From positions 124,001 through 188,000 of the forward strand of contig NZ_BSOS01000094.1 of assembly GCF_030160635.1 (NCBI RefSeq): 64,000 nucleotides of DNA. The letters are read 5' to 3'. The DNA is from Acidocella aquatica (lineage in GTDB: Bacteria; Pseudomonadota; Alphaproteobacteria; Acetobacterales; Acetobacteraceae). Shown here one piece after another: positions 35,664 to 42,440 of this stretch. Position 1 is the first letter of the stretch. Each line of letters opens with the position of its first letter. Below the pieces are notes generated by a model that ran no database searches, had not been told where the DNA came from, and saw nothing but the letters and a program-made list of their open reading frames with translations. The position numbers and the translations under genes are program-made.

Positions 35664-35700
35664 AAAAAAGGCCAGGAGATCAACATCCTGGCCTTTTTTT
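35664..35700 (+). terminator. Intrinsic terminator after mdh
   Basis: AAAAAAGGCCAGGA pairs with TCCTGGCC followed by seven Ts (35694-35700), a classic hairpin with T tract. It separates mdh from the hydrogenase-4-like operon, which therefore needs its own promoter in 35701-35771. Confidence 0.85.
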
Positions 35701-35771: not shown

Positions 35772-37436
35772 GTGGGTGATTCCGTTGCTTTGATGTTTGG
35801 TCTGCCAGGGCAGGGGATGCATCTGCGTCTTGACGCCTTATCAGTGCTGTTTTTGTGCATTCTGCTGCCCCAGATCGTTGCCAGCGCGCTGGCGGAGCGG
35901 CGCGGGCCGGTCACCTTCTGGGTTTTTGCCGCCGCCATGGTGCTGACCCTTCTGGCGGGTGATGCGTTCACACTGATTTTTGGCTTTGAGCTGATGAGCG
36001 CAGCCTCATGGCTGCTGGTATTGCGCGGCGATGCCAGGCCGGCGACGCTTTATGCCGGAATTGCGATGTTTTCCGCCGCATGCCTGATCCCGGCGGTGTT
36101 CCTGCCTGCGAGTTCGCTGGCGTTTATGCTGGTGTTGCTGGGGGCTGGCGCCAAGGCGGGTCTGGCACCTTTGCATTCATGGCTGCCGCGCGCGCATCCG
36201 GCGCCGCCTGCCGGGGTTTCCGCTTTGATGTCCGGCGGCATGGTGAAGGTCTCGCTTTATATCCTGATTCGCTATGGTTTTATTGAGTTCGGCGCGGCGG
36301 CGCAGCCCTGGTGGGGTTCCGTACTGATTGTCGCCGGGGCGGCTTCAGTGTTGATCGGCGCGTTGCGGGCCATGCTGGAGGTTGAGCTGAAGACCATGCT
36401 GGCCTGCTCGACGGTTGAGCATGTTGGGTTGATCGCGGTTGGCCTGGGGATCGCGCTGCGGGCGAAGGCGATGGGGAATCTGGATCTGGCGTCACTCGCG
36501 CTGCAGGGCGCTTTGCTTTGCGCGGTGGCGCATGGGTTGTTCAAGCCAATGCTGTTCCTGGGGGCTGGCGCGGTGAAAAATGCGACCGGGACGACCTCAT
36601 TGGATTGGTTGGGCGGGCTGATGCGTGGCATGCCCCGGCTGGGTATGCTGATGCTGGTGGGCGCCGCCGGGATGGCGGCGCTGCCGCTCGGGCCTGGTTT
36701 CGCCCCCGAATTTTTATTGCTGCATGCCGTGATTCGCGCGGCGGGTACGGGGGGGATTTTGGCGCGAATCGGCTTTACCGCCTTGCTGGCAGGGCTTGGT
36801 TTAAGTGCCGCCCTGGCGCTGGGCGCCGTGGTGCGGCTGATCGGCATAGGATTTTTGGGGCGGCCGCGCAGCCTGCATGCGGCCGCGGCTGAGGATGCGA
36901 AACGCGGCACGCTGGCCGGTATGGGGCTGTTGGCGGTACTTTGCGTGCCGGTGGCGTTGCTGCCGGGCGTTGTTCTGGGCATGCTCGAGCCGGTTATTGC
37001 GTTGTTGGCGCCCAACTCCGCCCCGGCGCCACTGAGTTATGCCCCTCTGTCCCTGGGTATTTTATTTGCCCTGACCGCGGGGGCGGCCGTTTTGGGTTTG
37101 CGCCGGTTTGCCGTGAGGGGCACGCGCGAGGTTGCGGCCTGGACGGGTGGATTTGGCAGCCCGCCGGCGTGGCTTCCGTTTGGTGATCCTCTGACGCAGC
37201 CCAGCGCCACCGGGTTTGCCGAGCCTGTCCGCCGCGCCATCGCGCGAGGGTTGCTGGCGCCAAAGGGGGTGGACCCGGCGGAGGCTTATCTGTTGTTGCC
37301 GCTGTCGAAGGTCAGTCTGCGGCTGACGCGGGTGGCCGAGCATATCCGCCGTTCCACCATGCGCCAGCGTCTGGCGTTTGTATTTGGCGCGCTGGTCATG
37401 TTCCTGCTGGCCCTTGGGCTTGGGGAAGGCGGGTGA
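35772..37436 (+). CDS. HyfB-like proton-conducting membrane subunit (complex I NuoL/M/N-type antiporter)
   Basis: 554-residue polytopic membrane protein, first gene of the hydrogenase-4-like operon. It has the antiporter-family core GFELMSAASWLLVLRG, KAGLAPLHSWLPRAHPAPPA (with the conserved lysine and HxWLPxAHP) and SALMSGGMVKVSLYILIRYG. Family members move protons in complex I and group 4 membrane-bound hydrogenases. GTG at 35772 has AAGG seven bases upstream; ATG at 35793 is an alternative. The next start overlaps its stop by four bases. Confidence 0.88.
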   Translation: MGDSVALMFGLPGQGMHLRLDALSVLFLCILLPQIVASALAERRGPVTFWVFAAAMVLTLLAGDAFTLIFGFELMSAASWLLVLRGDARPATLYAGIAMFSAACLIPAVFLPASSLAFMLVLLGAGAKAGLAPLHSWLPRAHPAPPAGVSALMSGGMVKVSLYILIRYGFIEFGAAAQPWWGSVLIVAGAASVLIGALRAMLEVELKTMLACSTVEHVGLIAVGLGIALRAKAMGNLDLASLALQGALLCAVAHGLFKPMLFLGAGAVKNATGTTSLDWLGGLMRGMPRLGMLMLVGAAGMAALPLGPGFAPEFLLLHAVIRAAGTGGILARIGFTALLAGLGLSAALALGAVVRLIGIGFLGRPRSLHAAAAEDAKRGTLAGMGLLAVLCVPVALLPGVVLGMLEPVIALLAPNSAPAPLSYAPLSLGILFALTAGAAVLGLRRFAVRGTREVAAWTGGFGSPPAWLPFGDPLTQPSATGFAEPVRRAIARGLLAPKGVDPAEAYLLLPLSKVSLRLTRVAEHIRRSTMRQRLAFVFGALVMFLLALGLGEGG

Positions 37437-38398
37437 TGGTCTTGTTCTTTCTCCGCCTGGTGGCGAGCTTGGCGCATATCGCCCTGGTGTTTGCCTTGGC
37501 GCCGCTGCTGCTGGGGCTGGTGACGAAACTGCGGGCGCGCTTATTGGGGCGCCGGGGGCCGCCGCTGCTGCAGCCATACCGCAACCTGCGCCGGCTGCTG
37601 CATAAAACCACGCTGGTGCCAGATACCGCGACCGACCTCTATCCCATCTGGCCGTTTGTAAGTTTTACGGCGATTGCCGTGGCAGCCATGCTGGTGCCGG
37701 GGTTTTGTCTGGGTCTGTTAACCTCCGATCTCAGTGATTTTATTACATTGGTTGGCCTGCTGGCGCTGGCGCGCGGGGCGGCCATGCTGGCGGGGTTGGA
37801 GTCGGGCTTTGGCTTCGGCGGGGCGGCTGCGGCGCGCGAGGCGCTCTTCAGCGTGTTCGCCGAGGCGGCTTTGCTGGTTGTTCTGGTTAGTTTCGTCCTG
37901 ATTGCTCATTCCCCGACGGTGGATGGAATCGCGGCGGCGTTCCGCACGGGGCATATCGGCATTTCGGTCTCGCTGGGGTTTGCACTGGCAGCCATGCTCG
38001 CCGTGGCTCTGACCGAAACGGGGCGTATTCCGACGGACAATCCCTCCGGGCATCTGGAACTCGCCATGGTGCATGAGGCGATGCTGCTGGAATATTCCGG
38101 GCGGTTTCTGTTGTTGTTCGAGTATGCGGCGATGCTGCGGCTGATGGTATGGATGTGTTTGATCGGCACGGTGTTTTTCCCCTTCGGCATGGCGCGCGCG
38201 GGTGAAATTCTCTCCTGGCCGGGCGGGCTGGTGCTGTGGGCGGGGAAACTGGGCGTGATGGCGGTGGCGCTCTCGTTGTTCGAGATTGGTACCGCGAAGA
38301 TGCGGGTCTTCCGGGTGCCGGAGTTTCTGGGTGTGGCCATGCTGCTTGGCGTGCTCGCGGGTGTGTTTCTCTTCGTTGCGGCCAGGATCGGCGCATGA
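37433..38398 (+). CDS. HyfC-like membrane subunit (NuoH/complex I subunit 1 family)
   Basis: 321-residue membrane protein of the NuoH/HyfC family that anchors the peripheral arm of complex I-like enzymes. Visible motifs: PLLLGLVTKLRARLLGRRGP and PLLQPYRNLRRLLHK at the first cytoplasmic loop, and TGRIPTDNPSGHLELAMVHE, the diagnostic acidic loop that forms part of the quinone or proton entry in complex I. It overlaps both HyfB and HyfE genes by four bases. Confidence 0.92.
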   Translation: MMVLFFLRLVASLAHIALVFALAPLLLGLVTKLRARLLGRRGPPLLQPYRNLRRLLHKTTLVPDTATDLYPIWPFVSFTAIAVAAMLVPGFCLGLLTSDLSDFITLVGLLALARGAAMLAGLESGFGFGGAAAAREALFSVFAEAALLVVLVSFVLIAHSPTVDGIAAAFRTGHIGISVSLGFALAAMLAVALTETGRIPTDNPSGHLELAMVHEAMLLEYSGRFLLLFEYAAMLRLMVWMCLIGTVFFPFGMARAGEILSWPGGLVLWAGKLGVMAVALSLFEIGTAKMRVFRVPEFLGVAMLLGVLAGVFLFVAARIGA

Positions 38399-39054
38399 AC
38401 CTGGTTTATCCGCTGGCGCATCTGATGGGCGGGGTGATCCTGCTTTGCGCGTTCTCGATGCTCTCTCAGCGCCGCCTGGCGGCGATGATCACGCTGTATC
38501 AGGTGCAGGCACTCACGCTTTCGGCCGCGGCCTTCTGGCAGGGATTCGCGCAAGGGGCGGGGGATCTCTACCTCACCGGCCTCATCACGCTGGCCATCAA
38601 GGGGATTTTGCTGCCCATGGGCATGCGTCAGATCGTGCAGCGCTTTAACATGGTCCGCGCCGTGGAAACCACCATGCCGGTCGGGCTTTCGATGATCCTG
38701 GGGGTCGGGCTGATCGGCATCGCGGTGCTGGTGGTGTTGCCCACCACGGTTAGCGCGGTCTCCCTCACGCGCGAGGATCTGGCGATTTCGCTCTCGGTCG
38801 TGCTGCTTGGCCTGCTGGTAATGACGCTGCGGCGCCATGCCATTGCGCAGGTGATTGGTTTTCTTTCCACCGAGAATGGGCTGGTGCTGGCGGCCACGGG
38901 TATGCCGGGGATGCCTTTTGTCGCCGAACTTTCGGTGGCGCTGCTGGTGTTGCTGGCATTTCTTGTCATCGGCGTGTTTCTGTTCCGCATTCGTGAGCAT
39001 TTTGACACGCTGGATTTGGTGGGGATTGAGGAAATCGAGAGGCGCGGGCGATGA
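38395..39054 (+). CDS. HyfE-like membrane subunit (hydrogenase-4 component E, NuoK-related)
   Basis: 219-residue membrane protein starting MNLVYPLAHLMGGVILLCAF. The NuoK-like features are QVQALTLSAAAFWQG and LITLAIKGILLPMGMRQIV, and later FLSTENGLVLAATGMPGMPF with the conserved glutamate in a membrane helix. HyfE proteins carry the NuoK domain plus extra helices. The ATG at 38395 overlaps the HyfC stop, and the stop overlaps the HyfF start. Confidence 0.9.
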   Translation: MNLVYPLAHLMGGVILLCAFSMLSQRRLAAMITLYQVQALTLSAAAFWQGFAQGAGDLYLTGLITLAIKGILLPMGMRQIVQRFNMVRAVETTMPVGLSMILGVGLIGIAVLVVLPTTVSAVSLTREDLAISLSVVLLGLLVMTLRRHAIAQVIGFLSTENGLVLAATGMPGMPFVAELSVALLVLLAFLVIGVFLFRIREHFDTLDLVGIEEIERRGR

Positions 39055-40505
39055 ATCTTTGTTTGCCCGCGGTGTTTTTGCCGTTGCTCGCGGCGCCGGC
39101 GATGGGCGTGTTTGGCACGCGCGCGCAGGGGGCGGTCGCGAATCTGGTGCTGAACGTCATCGTGTTTGGCTTTACCATCGCCGTGTTTTTCGGGCCTGGG
39201 AGCGGGCTGATCCATGCCGATGGCCTGGGGATGATCTTTGGCGTTCTGACCAGTTTTGTCAGCCTCATGACAGCGCTCAGCAATCTTAGCTTTGTGTGGG
39301 GTGGCAACGAGGTGCTGAGCCTGCGCCGCTGGCGGGTGTATCACGCCATGTGTCAGGTGGTCCTGGGGAGCACGCTGCTGGGGCTTTACGCCGATAACAT
39401 CGGGTTGCTCTGGGTGGCGGTGGAAGGGGCGACGATTGCCGCGACGCTGGGGGTAAGCCTGCCGCGCACGGCCTCGGCGCTGGAGGCCGCGTGGAAATAT
39501 TTCATCCTCGGCGGCGTGGGCATCGCGCTGGCGCTGTTTGGGACCATGCTGGTGTATCTGGCGGCGCAGCCGGCACTTGGGCCTGGGCTGCCGGCCATGA
39601 GTTTTGCGGCACTTACGGAGCACGCCAGCAAATTGGATGGTTCGCTGCTGACGCTGGCATTTGTATTTCTGCTGTTTGGCTATGGCACCAAGGCGGCGCT
39701 TGTGCCGCTGCATGGCTGGCTGCCAGATGCCTATGCTGAAGGGCCGATACCGCTGACCACCGCGCTCAGCACCTTGATGTTGAATGTCGCGCTGATCGCG
39801 ATTTTACGATACCGGCATTTGATGCAGGCGAATTTTGCCGGTGGCGGCGGGGCGTTGCAGCCGGGGGTGTTTTTGCTCACGCTGGGGTTGGCCTCTTTGC
39901 TGCTCACCGCCTTTTCGCTCTCGCGGCGGCGCGATGCACGGCGGTTTTTTGGTTTCTCCTCCGTTGAGCATTCCGGCATTGCGGTGTTCGCTTTTGGCAT
40001 TGGTGGTGCGGCGGCGATTTTTGGCGGGCTGTTGCATATGCTGGTGCATACGCTGGTGAAATCGGCCCTCTTTCAGGCGTTGATGCGCGGCGCGGCACTG
40101 CGCGGCTCGGCGGCGCCGGGCAATTATGGTTTTTCGCATCTGCGCGGCATGGTCCACAGCAACAAATATACCGGCTGGCTGCTTGGTGCCTGCGTATTTG
40201 CGCTGACGGGCCTGCCACCTTCCGGCCTGTTCGCCAGCGAGTTCATCATTATCAGCCAGACCATACAGCGCGATCCCTATGTGTCGCTGCCGCTCGGCCT
40301 GGGGCTGGTGTTATGTGCCGTGGCGATTATCCGCAATATCGGCCCGCTGGTGTTTGGTCATGCACCGCCGCATACCAAGCATCAGAAAGCCGGGATTGGC
40401 ATCAACCTGGTTGGGCTGCAGCTTGTGCTGGCCTTTATGGTTGCTTTTGCGATGCCTTGGTTCCTGTTGCATTCGCTTTCCTCCGTCGCGGCGGCGCTGC
40501 AATGA
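39051..40505 (+). CDS. HyfF-like proton-conducting membrane subunit (NuoM/L type)
   Basis: 484-residue second antiporter-like subunit. It has NIGLLWVAVEGATIAATLGV (conserved helix-5 glutamate), FGYGTKAALVPLHGWLPDAY (conserved lysine in TKAALVPLH), EGPIPLTTALSTLMLNVALI, and SSVEHSGIAVFAFGIGG. It differs clearly from the HyfB-like protein, so the complex carries two distinct antiporter modules. Overlaps both neighbours by four bases. Confidence 0.92.
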   Translation: MNLCLPAVFLPLLAAPAMGVFGTRAQGAVANLVLNVIVFGFTIAVFFGPGSGLIHADGLGMIFGVLTSFVSLMTALSNLSFVWGGNEVLSLRRWRVYHAMCQVVLGSTLLGLYADNIGLLWVAVEGATIAATLGVSLPRTASALEAAWKYFILGGVGIALALFGTMLVYLAAQPALGPGLPAMSFAALTEHASKLDGSLLTLAFVFLLFGYGTKAALVPLHGWLPDAYAEGPIPLTTALSTLMLNVALIAILRYRHLMQANFAGGGGALQPGVFLLTLGLASLLLTAFSLSRRRDARRFFGFSSVEHSGIAVFAFGIGGAAAIFGGLLHMLVHTLVKSALFQALMRGAALRGSAAPGNYGFSHLRGMVHSNKYTGWLLGACVFALTGLPPSGLFASEFIIISQTIQRDPYVSLPLGLGLVLCAVAIIRNIGPLVFGHAPPHTKHQKAGIGINLVGLQLVLAFMVAFAMPWFLLHSLSSVAAALQ

Positions 40506-41869
40506 AGCTGCTTTCATCGGAAGACTGGCAAGCCTATCCGGGTAAATTCATCGCCCTGTGGACGGATGCGCATTATGCCTACGCGCTCTATCAACCAGCC
40601 GAGCTGGTGGCGACGCTGCTGGTGAATGGCGCTTATCCGGCGCTGAGCCACAAAGGGGCTGGCTGGTTTCAGCGCCTGGCGCATGACAGCAATGGTCATA
40701 CCGCAATCGGAGCCACCGATACGCGCCCCGCCATCGAACATTTCCGCAGCTCGGACGGCACGGCATCATGGCCGGAGTTTTCCAGCCCCAGCGGAGAGGG
40801 GATCCACCAGGTTGCCGTGGGGCCGATCCATGCCGCGATTATCGAGCCGGGGCATTTCCGCTTCTCGCTGCGCGGTGAGGAGGTTTTGAAACTTGAAGCG
40901 CGGCTGGGTTATTCCCACAAGGGCACATTGGCGCTGATCCGCGGCAAATCACCGCGTCTGGCGGCGCGCTTCGCCGCGCGTGTTTCGGGCGATGCAACGG
41001 TTGCTCATGGCATTGCATTCGCGCATGCGGCCGAGGCGGCGCTGGGTGTTACACCGCCGGAGCGGGCTGTTTATCTGCGTGCGATCATGGCGGAGTTGGA
41101 GCGCCTGGCCAACCACGGCAGCGATATTGGCGCCATTGCGGGGGATGCGGGATTTTCGTTCCTCGATGCGCGTTTTGCCTGGCACCGTGAAACCCTGTGC
41201 GAGGCCGCCAAGGCGGCGTTTGGCCATCGGTTGATGATGGACATGGTGATCCCCGGTGGCGTCGCGGGGGATATTTTATTGGGCGGCATGGCGGCAATTC
41301 TTGCGGCCTTGCTGGCATTGGAAAGCGAACTTCCCGGCTTGACGCGGGTGTTCGAGGATTATGCCAGTTTGCAGGACCGGCTTGTGGGAACCGGCATTGT
41401 TCCGCCTCAACTGGCGCAGGCCTATGCCGCAGGCGGGTTCACCGGGCGGGCATCCGGCCAGAACCATGATGCACGGGTTTCGCCGGGTTATGCGCCCTAT
41501 GAGCATTTCGGTCTGGAGGTTCCGGTTGAGCAAGATGGGGATGTGGCGGCGCGCATTCGTATCCGGCTGGCCGAAATCATCGAGAGCATCCGCTTTATCC
41601 GTGATATGCTGACAAATTTGCCAGATACCGCCATTGTGATTGCCCCGCCTTCGGGCAGCGGCAGCGGGGTTGGCGTGGCGGAGAGTTTCAGGGGGCCCGT
41701 GTGGCACTGGCTGCGTATCGAGTCAGGCACCATCGCCGATGTGTTCATCGCCGATGCCAGCACGCTGCAATGGCCGCTGGTCGAATTCGCGGCCACGACC
41801 GCGATTCTCGCGGATTTCCCGCTTATCAACAAATCCATCAACGCCTCCTACTCGGGAGTGGATCTGTAA
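40502..41869 (+). CDS. HyfG-like large subunit lacking all four NiFe-ligand cysteines (NuoCD-related)
   Basis: 455-residue fusion of an N-terminal 30-kDa (NuoC-like) domain (about 1-105) and a hydrogenase large-subunit/NuoD-like domain starting VAVGPIHAAIIEPGHFRFSL. Real NiFe enzymes have RVCGIC-type and DPCxxC-type motifs. Here the first site reads ARVSGDATVAHG (S162, A165) and the C-terminus reads INASYSGVDL (S449, G452). One cysteine remains in the whole protein (ETLCEAA), elsewhere. It therefore cannot bind a NiFe cluster, and a quinone-type or other site is more likely. The ATG at 40502 overlaps the HyfF stop. Confidence 0.88.
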   Translation: MKLLSSEDWQAYPGKFIALWTDAHYAYALYQPAELVATLLVNGAYPALSHKGAGWFQRLAHDSNGHTAIGATDTRPAIEHFRSSDGTASWPEFSSPSGEGIHQVAVGPIHAAIIEPGHFRFSLRGEEVLKLEARLGYSHKGTLALIRGKSPRLAARFAARVSGDATVAHGIAFAHAAEAALGVTPPERAVYLRAIMAELERLANHGSDIGAIAGDAGFSFLDARFAWHRETLCEAAKAAFGHRLMMDMVIPGGVAGDILLGGMAAILAALLALESELPGLTRVFEDYASLQDRLVGTGIVPPQLAQAYAAGGFTGRASGQNHDARVSPGYAPYEHFGLEVPVEQDGDVAARIRIRLAEIIESIRFIRDMLTNLPDTAIVIAPPSGSGSGVGVAESFRGPVWHWLRIESGTIADVFIADASTLQWPLVEFAATTAILADFPLINKSINASYSGVDL

Positions 41870-42411
41870 TGGTCTGGAAAACCCTCGCCCGGCACTTCAT
41901 CTCCCACCCGGCCCCGCCGTGCAAAGCCAATGACGCAGCCGTGGCGGCGCTACGCCAGCGCCTTGCCGCCGCGGGACATAAGAAGCTTGGCCGGAGTCTG
42001 GCCATCCGCCATGTCGCCGCCGGAAGCTGCAATGGCTGTGAGCTGGAGTTGCGGGCGACGCAAAATCTTGTCTATGACCTGACGCAATATGGGCTGAGCT
42101 TTACGCCCAGCCCGCGCCACGCGGATATATTGCTGATCACCGGTGTCGCGGGGGGGAATATGCTCACCGCCGTGCGTCAGGCGCGCGAGGCGATGCCGGA
42201 GCCGGTGCTCGTTATTGCCGTGGGTGATTGCGCGGTGGATGGCGGGGTTTTTAAAGGCTCGCCAGCCATTACCGGTGGGGCGGATTCAATTTTGCAGGTC
42301 GATCTGGTGGTCGCCGGCTGCCCGCCAGCCCCGGCGCAGATCATTGAGGGATTGCTGGCTCTGCTTGAAGTCAACGACACCGCCCCAAGGCCGGTGAGGG
42401 TGCCAAGGTAG
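41869..42411 (+). CDS. HyfI-like small iron-sulfur subunit (NuoB family)
   Basis: 180-residue NuoB/HycG-family protein that carries the [4Fe-4S] cluster next to the active site. The four ligands are visible: GSCNGCELELRA (C54, C57), VIAVGDCAVDGG (C121) and VVAGCPPAPAQI (C151). An N-terminal basic extension of about 45 residues precedes them. The cluster site is intact although the partner large subunit has lost its metal ligands. It is the last gene of the operon, with its start overlapping the previous stop by one base. No ferredoxin-like HyfH/HycF subunit follows. Confidence 0.9.
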   Translation: MVWKTLARHFISHPAPPCKANDAAVAALRQRLAAAGHKKLGRSLAIRHVAAGSCNGCELELRATQNLVYDLTQYGLSFTPSPRHADILLITGVAGGNMLTAVRQAREAMPEPVLVIAVGDCAVDGGVFKGSPAITGGADSILQVDLVVAGCPPAPAQIIEGLLALLEVNDTAPRPVRVPR

Positions 42412-42440
42412 AAACCAGGGGGCAGCGCGCCCCCTGGTTT
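42412..42440. terminator. Bidirectional terminator between the hydrogenase-4-like operon and ppa
   Basis: AAACCAGGGGGC at 42412-42423 pairs with GCCCCCTGGTTT at 42429-42440 around AGCGC. It begins at the stop codon of the small subunit and ends 15 bp before the end of the convergent ppa gene. T-rich flanks on both strands fit use in both directions. Confidence 0.75.

Follow-up and report, generated by a model that had tools for sequence, protein, structure and literature searches.

The 64,000-nucleotide stretch of the Acidocella aquatica genome analysed here (the window; part of contig NZ_BSOS01000094.1 in a 4.03 Mb assembly) carries a six-gene operon, hyfBCEFGI, whose products are kin to the subunits of group-4 hydrogenases and of respiratory complex I. 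By gene order and tree position the operon is a member of the Hyq family (hyqRBCEFGI of Azorhizobium caulinodans), and the sequence of its large subunit, HyfG, indicates that the product is not a NiFe hydrogenase. We propose, giving the idea an even chance, that the six genes together encode a single Hyq/Ehr-family membrane complex (Ehr, energy-converting hydrogenase-related), a minimal six-subunit complex I core that would act as an ion-pumping oxidoreductase with one cluster in HyfI and an altered pocket in HyfG. The family itself has already been named and published. What is new, as judged by literature searches, is a test of the published Hyq view on the variant found in the window and a divergent branch of the family with apparently emptied channels; no prior account was found in the open-access literature, among the matches listed.

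The operon occupies positions 35772-42411 of the plus strand, and every gene overlaps its successor, just as the first-pass annotation of this DNA had it. Its genes and the two key sites of HyfG are the following (the starts of hyfE, hyfG and hyfI were taken by hand from the translations):

35772-37436, plus strand: hyfB (hyqB-like), shortened antiporter-type subunit of 554 aa; Pfam Proton_antipo_M, 1.3e-34
37433-38398, plus strand: hyfC, NuoH-like membrane subunit; Pfam NADHdh, 1.1e-26
38395-39054, plus strand: hyfE, small membrane subunit; NCBIfam hydrogenase 4 membrane subunit, 3.6e-17, below cut-off
39051-40505, plus strand: hyfF, second antiporter-type subunit; Pfam Proton_antipo_M, 7.8e-36
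40502-41869, plus strand: hyfG (hyqG-like), large subunit of 455 aa; Pfam Complex1_49kDa and NiFeSe_Hases
40979-41008, plus strand: HyfG R160-V-S-G-D-A-T-V-A-H169, site of the first CxxC motif; C to S162 and C to A165, with D164 invariant in the family
41828-41866, plus strand: HyfG C-terminus N443-K-S-I-N-A-S-Y-S-G-V-D-L455, site of the second CxxC motif; C to S449 and C to G452
41869-42411, plus strand: hyfI (hyqI-like), small subunit; Pfam Oxidored_q6, 3.7e-29

Pfam matches lie above the cut-offs for five of the six genes; HyfE has no Pfam match, and the NCBIfam matches listed for the six proteins all fall under the curated cut-offs. The kinship with group-4 hydrogenases and complex I that had been read from the sequence at first pass is supported.

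The best solved match of HyfG by phmmer is HycE of the E. coli formate hydrogenlyase (FHL; 7z0s_E, 3.4e-39), and in the alignment of the two proteins RVCGIC and DPCYSC of HycE become RVSGDA and NASYSG. All four nickel-ligand cysteines are replaced in the window (by S, A, S and G), a single cysteine is left in the whole protein, and the C-terminal tail is gone: the chain stops 3 residues past the last ligand column, and the corresponding tail is 34-35 residues long in three untrimmed hydrogenase references (two others, cut at the profile edge, show an uninformative 3-residue tail). We aligned 71 large subunits, comprising 5 hydrogenases, 3 NuoD, 32 canonical and 29 divergent members of the family, and 2 others. 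The four ligand cysteines, C1 to C4, are present in 5/5 hydrogenases; the canonical rows have cysteine at the ligand columns in 0/32 cases, and all 32 have serine at C1, glycine at C4 and a stop 3 residues after C4. A cysteine at C2 occurs in 1/29 divergent rows, and none at the other ligand columns. A wider set of 157 unique HyfG rows includes HyqG; rows with less than 36% identity to HyqG and divergent, duplicate or site-incomplete rows were removed from it. In this set C1 is serine in 156 rows and C4 glycine in 157, with cysteine at C1 in one row and at C2 in a different one. The operon, annotated as 'hydrogenase 4', is widespread, and all 157 unique large subunits examined are without the NiFe ligand set.

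HyfG is also the sole match to PF00374 in the genome, and HypD has no match in the 4.03 Mb assembly (other hyp genes were not searched). On the missing ligands, the missing tail and the lack of HypD, a NiFe hydrogenase was considered and rejected. The first-pass statements that the operon does not encode a hydrogenase and that hyp genes are lacking are upheld, the former by sequence and the latter for HypD genome-wide.

The pocket that these changes leave is itself conserved. R160, S162, D164, E394, R397, D418, D438, S445, N447, G452 and D454 are invariant in the 32 canonical rows, and E115, H118 and R120 are present in 31 of them. E115, H118, R120 and R397 are common to HyfG and 5/5 hydrogenases; D164 and N447 stand where hydrogenases have Ile and Asp. 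In Nqo4/NuoD a tyrosine and a histidine hold ubiquinone. When Thermus Nqo4 is aligned gap-free, its Tyr falls on G163 and its second His on I114 of the window's HyfG. The pocket thus compared appears to be of a third kind, unlike that of a hydrogenase or of NuoD. A Foldseek search with the AlphaFold2 model of HyfG also placed 7z0s_E on top, followed by complex I chains.

HyfI, whose best solved match is MbhJ of the membrane-bound hydrogenase MBH (6cfw_J, 3.1e-31), has its cluster cysteines at C54, C57, C121 and C151 (hand-counted), invariant in 7/7 aligned rows. The glutamate/lysine set of NuoM, NuoL and NuoN serves as channel residues, and the corresponding columns were located by alignment to these E. 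coli proteins. E73, K128, K159 and E313 of HyfB (hand-counted on the translation) and the E, K, N and E of HyfF are all present in the window; among 12 canonical rows they are kept in 12, 12, 11 and 11 for HyfB and in 12, 12, 12 and 11 for HyfF. Of the charged positions that do not vary among relatives, the window keeps 17/18 in HyfC, 11/12 in HyfE and 12/13 in HyfF. The retained charged and channel residues fit a working pump.

The published literature on the family is cited here from excerpts of the papers throughout. Ng et al. 2009 (PMC2650096) interpreted the A. caulinodans genes hyqRBCEFGI as encoding a Ni,Fe endo-hydrogenase of group 4 with a role in H2 recycling, and a companion paper exists (PMC2930871). 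Sprecher et al. 2012 (PMC3357923) reported that HyqG of eight genera is without both CxxC motifs, noted four cysteines in HyqI, and came to doubt the Ni,Fe site. We sought the published Hyq-Prox primer in 391 genomes of one family and obtained a single matching genome, whose locus has all six genes. The large subunit encoded there has 504 residues, with cysteines at 258, 270, 355, 491 and 497; since its length and three of its cysteines agree with the published HyqG, we take it to be HyqG. It is 44% identical to the window's HyfG over 461 columns, and the two share the SGD..GxDL signatures and the lack of CxxC. A bootstrapped tree with 58 rows unites HyqG and the window in a Hyq clade of 52 rows (100/100), and the five four-Cys hydrogenases form a separate group (95/97), so that the large subunit stands apart from the NiFe enzymes used, as the first-pass annotation had anticipated. 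This tree left out 14/72 rows, including long branches and two NuoD rows, and its root is unsure owing to long branches at the outgroup; a quick tree of 71 rows agrees with it.

The gene order B-C-E-F-G-I on one strand is found in 60/67 stretches, that is, 66 named loci longer than 9 kb plus the window. Six of the seven exceptions start within the operon at a contig end, and L082 was found without HyfB. When E. coli HyfA, HyfD and HyfH were used as queries, they were the best match of no open reading frame (ORF) in the 67 stretches. The named loci, which are the best 80 of 580 confirmed stretches, include Roseomonas, Bradyrhizobium, Rhodopseudomonas, Azospirillum, Mesorhizobium and the Rhizobium johnstonii 3841 plasmid pRL11 among those listed. 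HyfG matches at E <= 1e-34 occur in 35/385 genomes sampled from the class and 73/398 from the phylum, own genome counted. Hydrogenases probably make up the weakest of these (28-30% identity), among which G816 (L170) is the one that was checked. The Cys-less large subunit is labelled 'nickel-dependent hydrogenase large subunit' or 'hydrogenase expression protein HypE' in four public plasmid records (H1, H8, H20, H24).

HypD and nifH were followed through carriers of the operon. HypD scores above cut-off in 11/40 canonical and 0/12 divergent carriers, and is present in G879, a carrier of the window's own genus. The window genome has no nifH match above cut-off. Above cut-off, nifH is found in 7/50 canonical carriers (A. 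caulinodans included, by choice and not by sampling), 0/12 divergent carriers and 2/18 non-carriers, and carrier G440 has a partial match under cut-off. A tie of the operon to nitrogen fixation was considered on these counts and set aside, the sample being too uneven for a difference between canonical carriers and non-carriers. The window's genome also encodes two further NuoD-type proteins, in 407-aa and 635-aa frames. The longer one groups with E. coli NuoCD, and the genome probably has two versions of complex I beside the Hyq complex.

A mechanism for the proposed oxidoreductase can be sketched. A soluble one-electron carrier, ferredoxin- or flavodoxin-like, would dock on HyfI; no HyfA or HyfH subunit is present. 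Electrons would pass the single 4Fe-4S cluster of HyfI into the former NiFe cavity of HyfG, which keeps E115, H118, R120 and R397, has swapped its ligands for S162, A165, S449 and G452, and has added D164 and N447. There a small substrate that takes up two electrons, in all likelihood a quinone, would be reduced, or oxidised in reverse, and the charge movement at HyfG/HyfC would be coupled to proton passage via HyfC, HyfE, HyfF and HyfB. The substrate step is a guess, since the only recurrent neighbour found for the operon is a helix-turn-helix (HTH) gene that has no counterpart in the window.

Several observations weigh against this proposal. The one recurrent neighbour found, the HTH gene, is missing from the window. 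HyfB is shortened, to 554 aa from about 670 in most relatives, and of 15 charged positions that are invariant in relatives it keeps 10, as many as E. coli HyfB does; in 55/60 stretches the local HyfB is closer to E. coli HyfB than to that of the window. The HyfG model has a mean predicted local distance difference test (pLDDT) score of 74, falling below 50 at residues 78-140 and 433-455. Sprecher et al. state that the quinone-cavity elements are conserved, yet the two head-group residues are not. Finally, the H2 phenotypes published for the A. caulinodans ortholog can be accommodated only with extra assumptions.

These phenotypes speak for the Hyq view, a genuine H2 oxidation and evolution at a site not of the NiFe type, perhaps at other cysteines, with electron exchange with the quinone pool. 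The only experimentally studied member that we found is that of A. caulinodans, published as an H2-recycling hydrogenase. Its hyq operon requires NifA, and diazotrophic growth is about a fifth slower when hyq is deleted. H2 evolution changes as well: at 20 uM O2 the deletion raises it to 175 units, against 12 with hyq intact (540 against 16 in the absence of hup), and at <1 uM O2 without hup the deletion lowers it to 14,000, against 61,000 (PMC3357923). Cys 258, 491 and 497 are stated in the same paper to be fully conserved in HyqG of eight genera, and we find all three in 70/77 named unique rows. The window's HyfG, however, has A, I and A in their place; among the 24 unique canonical rows of the window's family, 5 have none of the three and 4 have all, and in the overall set the three occur together in 112/157 unique rows, so they are not universal in the clade. 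HypD is missing or under cut-off in 29/40 canonical carriers, and nifH is as sparse as described above. The growth defect is uncured by added H2 (PMC2650096), and the H2 of the nifK hup strain was ascribed to Hyq because it is NifA-dependent, whereas a nifK hup hyq strain is listed in neither Table 2 nor the strain table of PMC3357923. Some link to H2 does exist in A. caulinodans, and the change of H2 evolution on deletion in the ortholog is of the kind that, by the first-pass annotation, would count against its reading. These effects are possibly indirect, given the lack of the three cysteines in the window, the rarity of nifH among carriers and the unlisted triple mutant. On balance we regard H2 chemistry at such a site as unlikely, and the hydrogenase view does not extend to the window genome, which has neither nifH nor HypD nor any of these cysteines. 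A variant that has neither the nickel ligands nor the alternative cysteines separates the two hypotheses.

The same A. caulinodans data invite another reading, in which the pump runs in reverse and proton-motive force pushes quinol electrons up to ferredoxin or flavodoxin for nitrogenase or other low-potential reactions. Regulation by nif and a diazotrophic defect that H2 does not cure (PMC2650096) speak for it, as do the kept pump residues and the single cluster site, but nifH is missing from the window genome and from most carriers examined, which would make this at most one use of a more general device, and the H2 data are left unexplained; we hold it to be rather improbable. It might also be asked whether the operon of the window's genus is a decaying relic, with a HyfB that has lost its N-terminal helices and a HyfG that has lost its cysteines. 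HyfB has lost ~50-60 residues at its N-terminus, another ~20 within the chain and a few shorter segments, and it is just as short in two other genomes of the genus (3/3 read). Yet the frames are open, the channel residues are still present, and the ratio of nonsynonymous to synonymous substitution rates (dN/dS) within the genus is below 0.4, at 0.15-0.23 for G000/G068 and 0.29-0.39 for G068/G879 (HyfE unscored). We give decay little credence, and return to the ion-pumping oxidoreductase as our preferred reading.

Further loss appears to have taken place in a divergent branch of the family. With a profile built from diverged members, a HyfG homologue is detected at E <= 1e-30 in 123/150 sampled genomes of the taxonomic family, a count in which two of the loci read (L235, L236) are true hydrogenases. 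The divergent set consists of 29 loci (L167-L169, L207-L232) from genomes of 1.9-4.0 Mb, for which the label acetic-acid-bacteria-like is inferred from their family and genome size. They form one clade (29 rows, support 98, in the quick tree; 19 kept rows, 100/96, in the bootstrapped tree), which is a sister branch. By position, a HyfB-like gene is found in 29/29, HyfC in 29/29, a HyfF-like gene in 28/29 and a HyfE-like gene in 21/29 loci, with profile-profile probabilities against the canonical subunits of 99.6 (HyfB), 99.8 (HyfC), 96.2 (HyfF) and 81.3% (HyfE). Loss of HyfI in some of the small genomes was considered and refuted: the gene is present in 12/12 genomes tested (11 divergent, 1 intermediate), in seven of them far from the operon, and its four cysteines are kept in all 6 divergent rows aligned.

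In these loci the membrane subunits are nearly devoid of conserved charge: the divergent HyfB, HyfC, HyfE and HyfF have 2, 0, 1 and 0 conserved charged columns, against many in the canonical ones, with alignments that are poor in places. The clearest case is HyfB of G001, which keeps 51/80 invariant uncharged but 3/15 charged positions; E. coli NuoM, for comparison, keeps 25/80 and 11/15. G071 (44 uncharged and 7 charged) and G840 (41 and 6) are milder. Most channel columns are gaps in the divergent branch. The four HyfB sites could be aligned in 2, 5, 4 and 21 of 29 members and never hold the canonical residue (one K to R, one E to R); those of HyfF, aligned in 2, 4, 1 and 8 of 28, do not hold it either (two E to D). 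G001 has L, I, A, A at the HyfB sites; in G840 these are A, R, I, R, and its HyfF sites read S, P, A, L. Residual charge is seen as R in G840 HyfB and as D at the last HyfF site in two genomes. Channel residue loss is likely in the remaining members, whose sites do not align. The genes are maintained, as dN/dS (simple NG86) is below 1 in every scored comparison among seven divergent pairs, with values of 0.045-0.104 in G870/G054 and reaching 0.69 in G042/G862; saturated values, of which there were several, were left unscored. We tentatively see in this small-genome branch, at somewhat short of an even chance, a selected gene set whose channels have been emptied of charge and whose NiFe site and Hyq pocket are gone, with the HyfI cluster left: a non-pumping offshoot of the complex I/hydrogenase superfamily, possibly a quinone-linked oxidoreductase independent of proton-motive force or a redox sensor, the window's genus representing an early degree of loss. 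Should this be true, the branch, in which HyfI is kept even when relocated, would offer the complex I superfamily a natural loss-of-pumping series that helps to tell redox parts from coupling parts. No description of the branch was found in the open-access literature searched, among the matches listed, and a search for this complex in acetic acid bacteria met no mention of it in the titles or abstract openings of the open-access papers among those matches.

Other large subunits were met on the way. L235 and L236 (same family; one genome 1.9 Mb) encode large subunits of group 4 in which the four Ni-ligand cysteines are complete. Those of L234 (G842) and L237 (G058) lie outside both main groups and have extra pocket changes; near the G842 large subunit HyfB, HyfC, HyfE and HyfF were not detected.

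The recurrent neighbour of the operon, a small HTH gene (HTH_3, cluster 12), is present in 25/67 stretches; of the 30 members listed 23 lie immediately 5' of hyfB, so that such a gene precedes hyfB in at least 23/67 stretches. A hyqR-like HTH_3 gene precedes hyqB in A. caulinodans and in 4/5 plasmid loci. In tblastn (1e-3) the window gave no match to the hyqR-like gene, nor did 40 loci from the same family as the window, and the gene is therefore not a feature of the whole clade. At L173, L174, L175, L177 and L239 (Rhizobium, Bradyrhizobium, Methylovirgula, A. caulinodans) an HTH gene matching hyqR is immediately 5' of hyfB, and the Methylovirgula operon has a second ATP synthase cluster on one side and a fae gene on the other. 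Flank clustering gave no partner gene: a further cluster, likewise with 25 stretches, is the antisense shadow of hyfC, and the positions of an ABC transporter ATPase (8/67) and a DctM transporter (7/67) vary.

Two hairpins flank the operon, and the first-pass placement of the genes between two terminators agrees with their folding, which is better than that of shuffled sequences (MFE, minimum free energy; the labels of the neighbouring ORFs are a reading of their translations):

35664-35699: terminator hairpin separating the operon from a malate-dehydrogenase-like ORF; 14-bp stem, 8-nt loop, T run; MFE -22.2, z -6.86
42412-42440: 12-bp hairpin 3' of the operon, ahead of a converging pyrophosphatase-like ORF; MFE -24.1, z -2.9 (plus) and -3.4 (minus)

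A simple terminator scan of the window gave 14 sites against 13.7 expected, and the hairpin at 35664-35699 is absent from its list.

Taken as a whole, the first-pass annotation is partly supported. Its Ehr-type complex stands as to the Ehr-like nature and the lack of a known electron donor, but the family already bears the name Hyq, and mutant phenotypes have been published. The closest known system is accordingly Hyq of A. caulinodans, which shares with the window all six structural genes, their order and one clade; the window differs in having no hyqR-like gene upstream, a shorter HyfB and none of the three HyqG cysteines, and its genome in having neither nifH nor HypD. The Ehr complexes of Geobacter, Nitrospira and Margulisbacteria, compared from excerpts by their description, likewise combine a group-4-like large subunit without Ni ligands with membrane antiporter subunits. 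E. coli Hyf and FHL-1 (Hyc) share the subunit families and their order, and HyfG finds its best solved match in HycE, but E. coli possesses the four Ni-ligand cysteines, the C-terminal tail, HyfA, HyfD and HyfH, of which the window has none. In the MBS/Mbx sulfur reductases, catalysis takes place at the proximal cluster, which faces an open cavity. Respiratory complex I resembles the window's operon in the HyfG fold, the HyfI cluster site and the HyfB/HyfF channel residues (NuoB, NuoCD, NuoH and NuoL/M/N being the kin); the operon differs in having no NADH module NuoEFG, no NuoI and no NuoD quinone Tyr/His, and on its separate clade and missing NADH module an ordinary copy of complex I was rejected.

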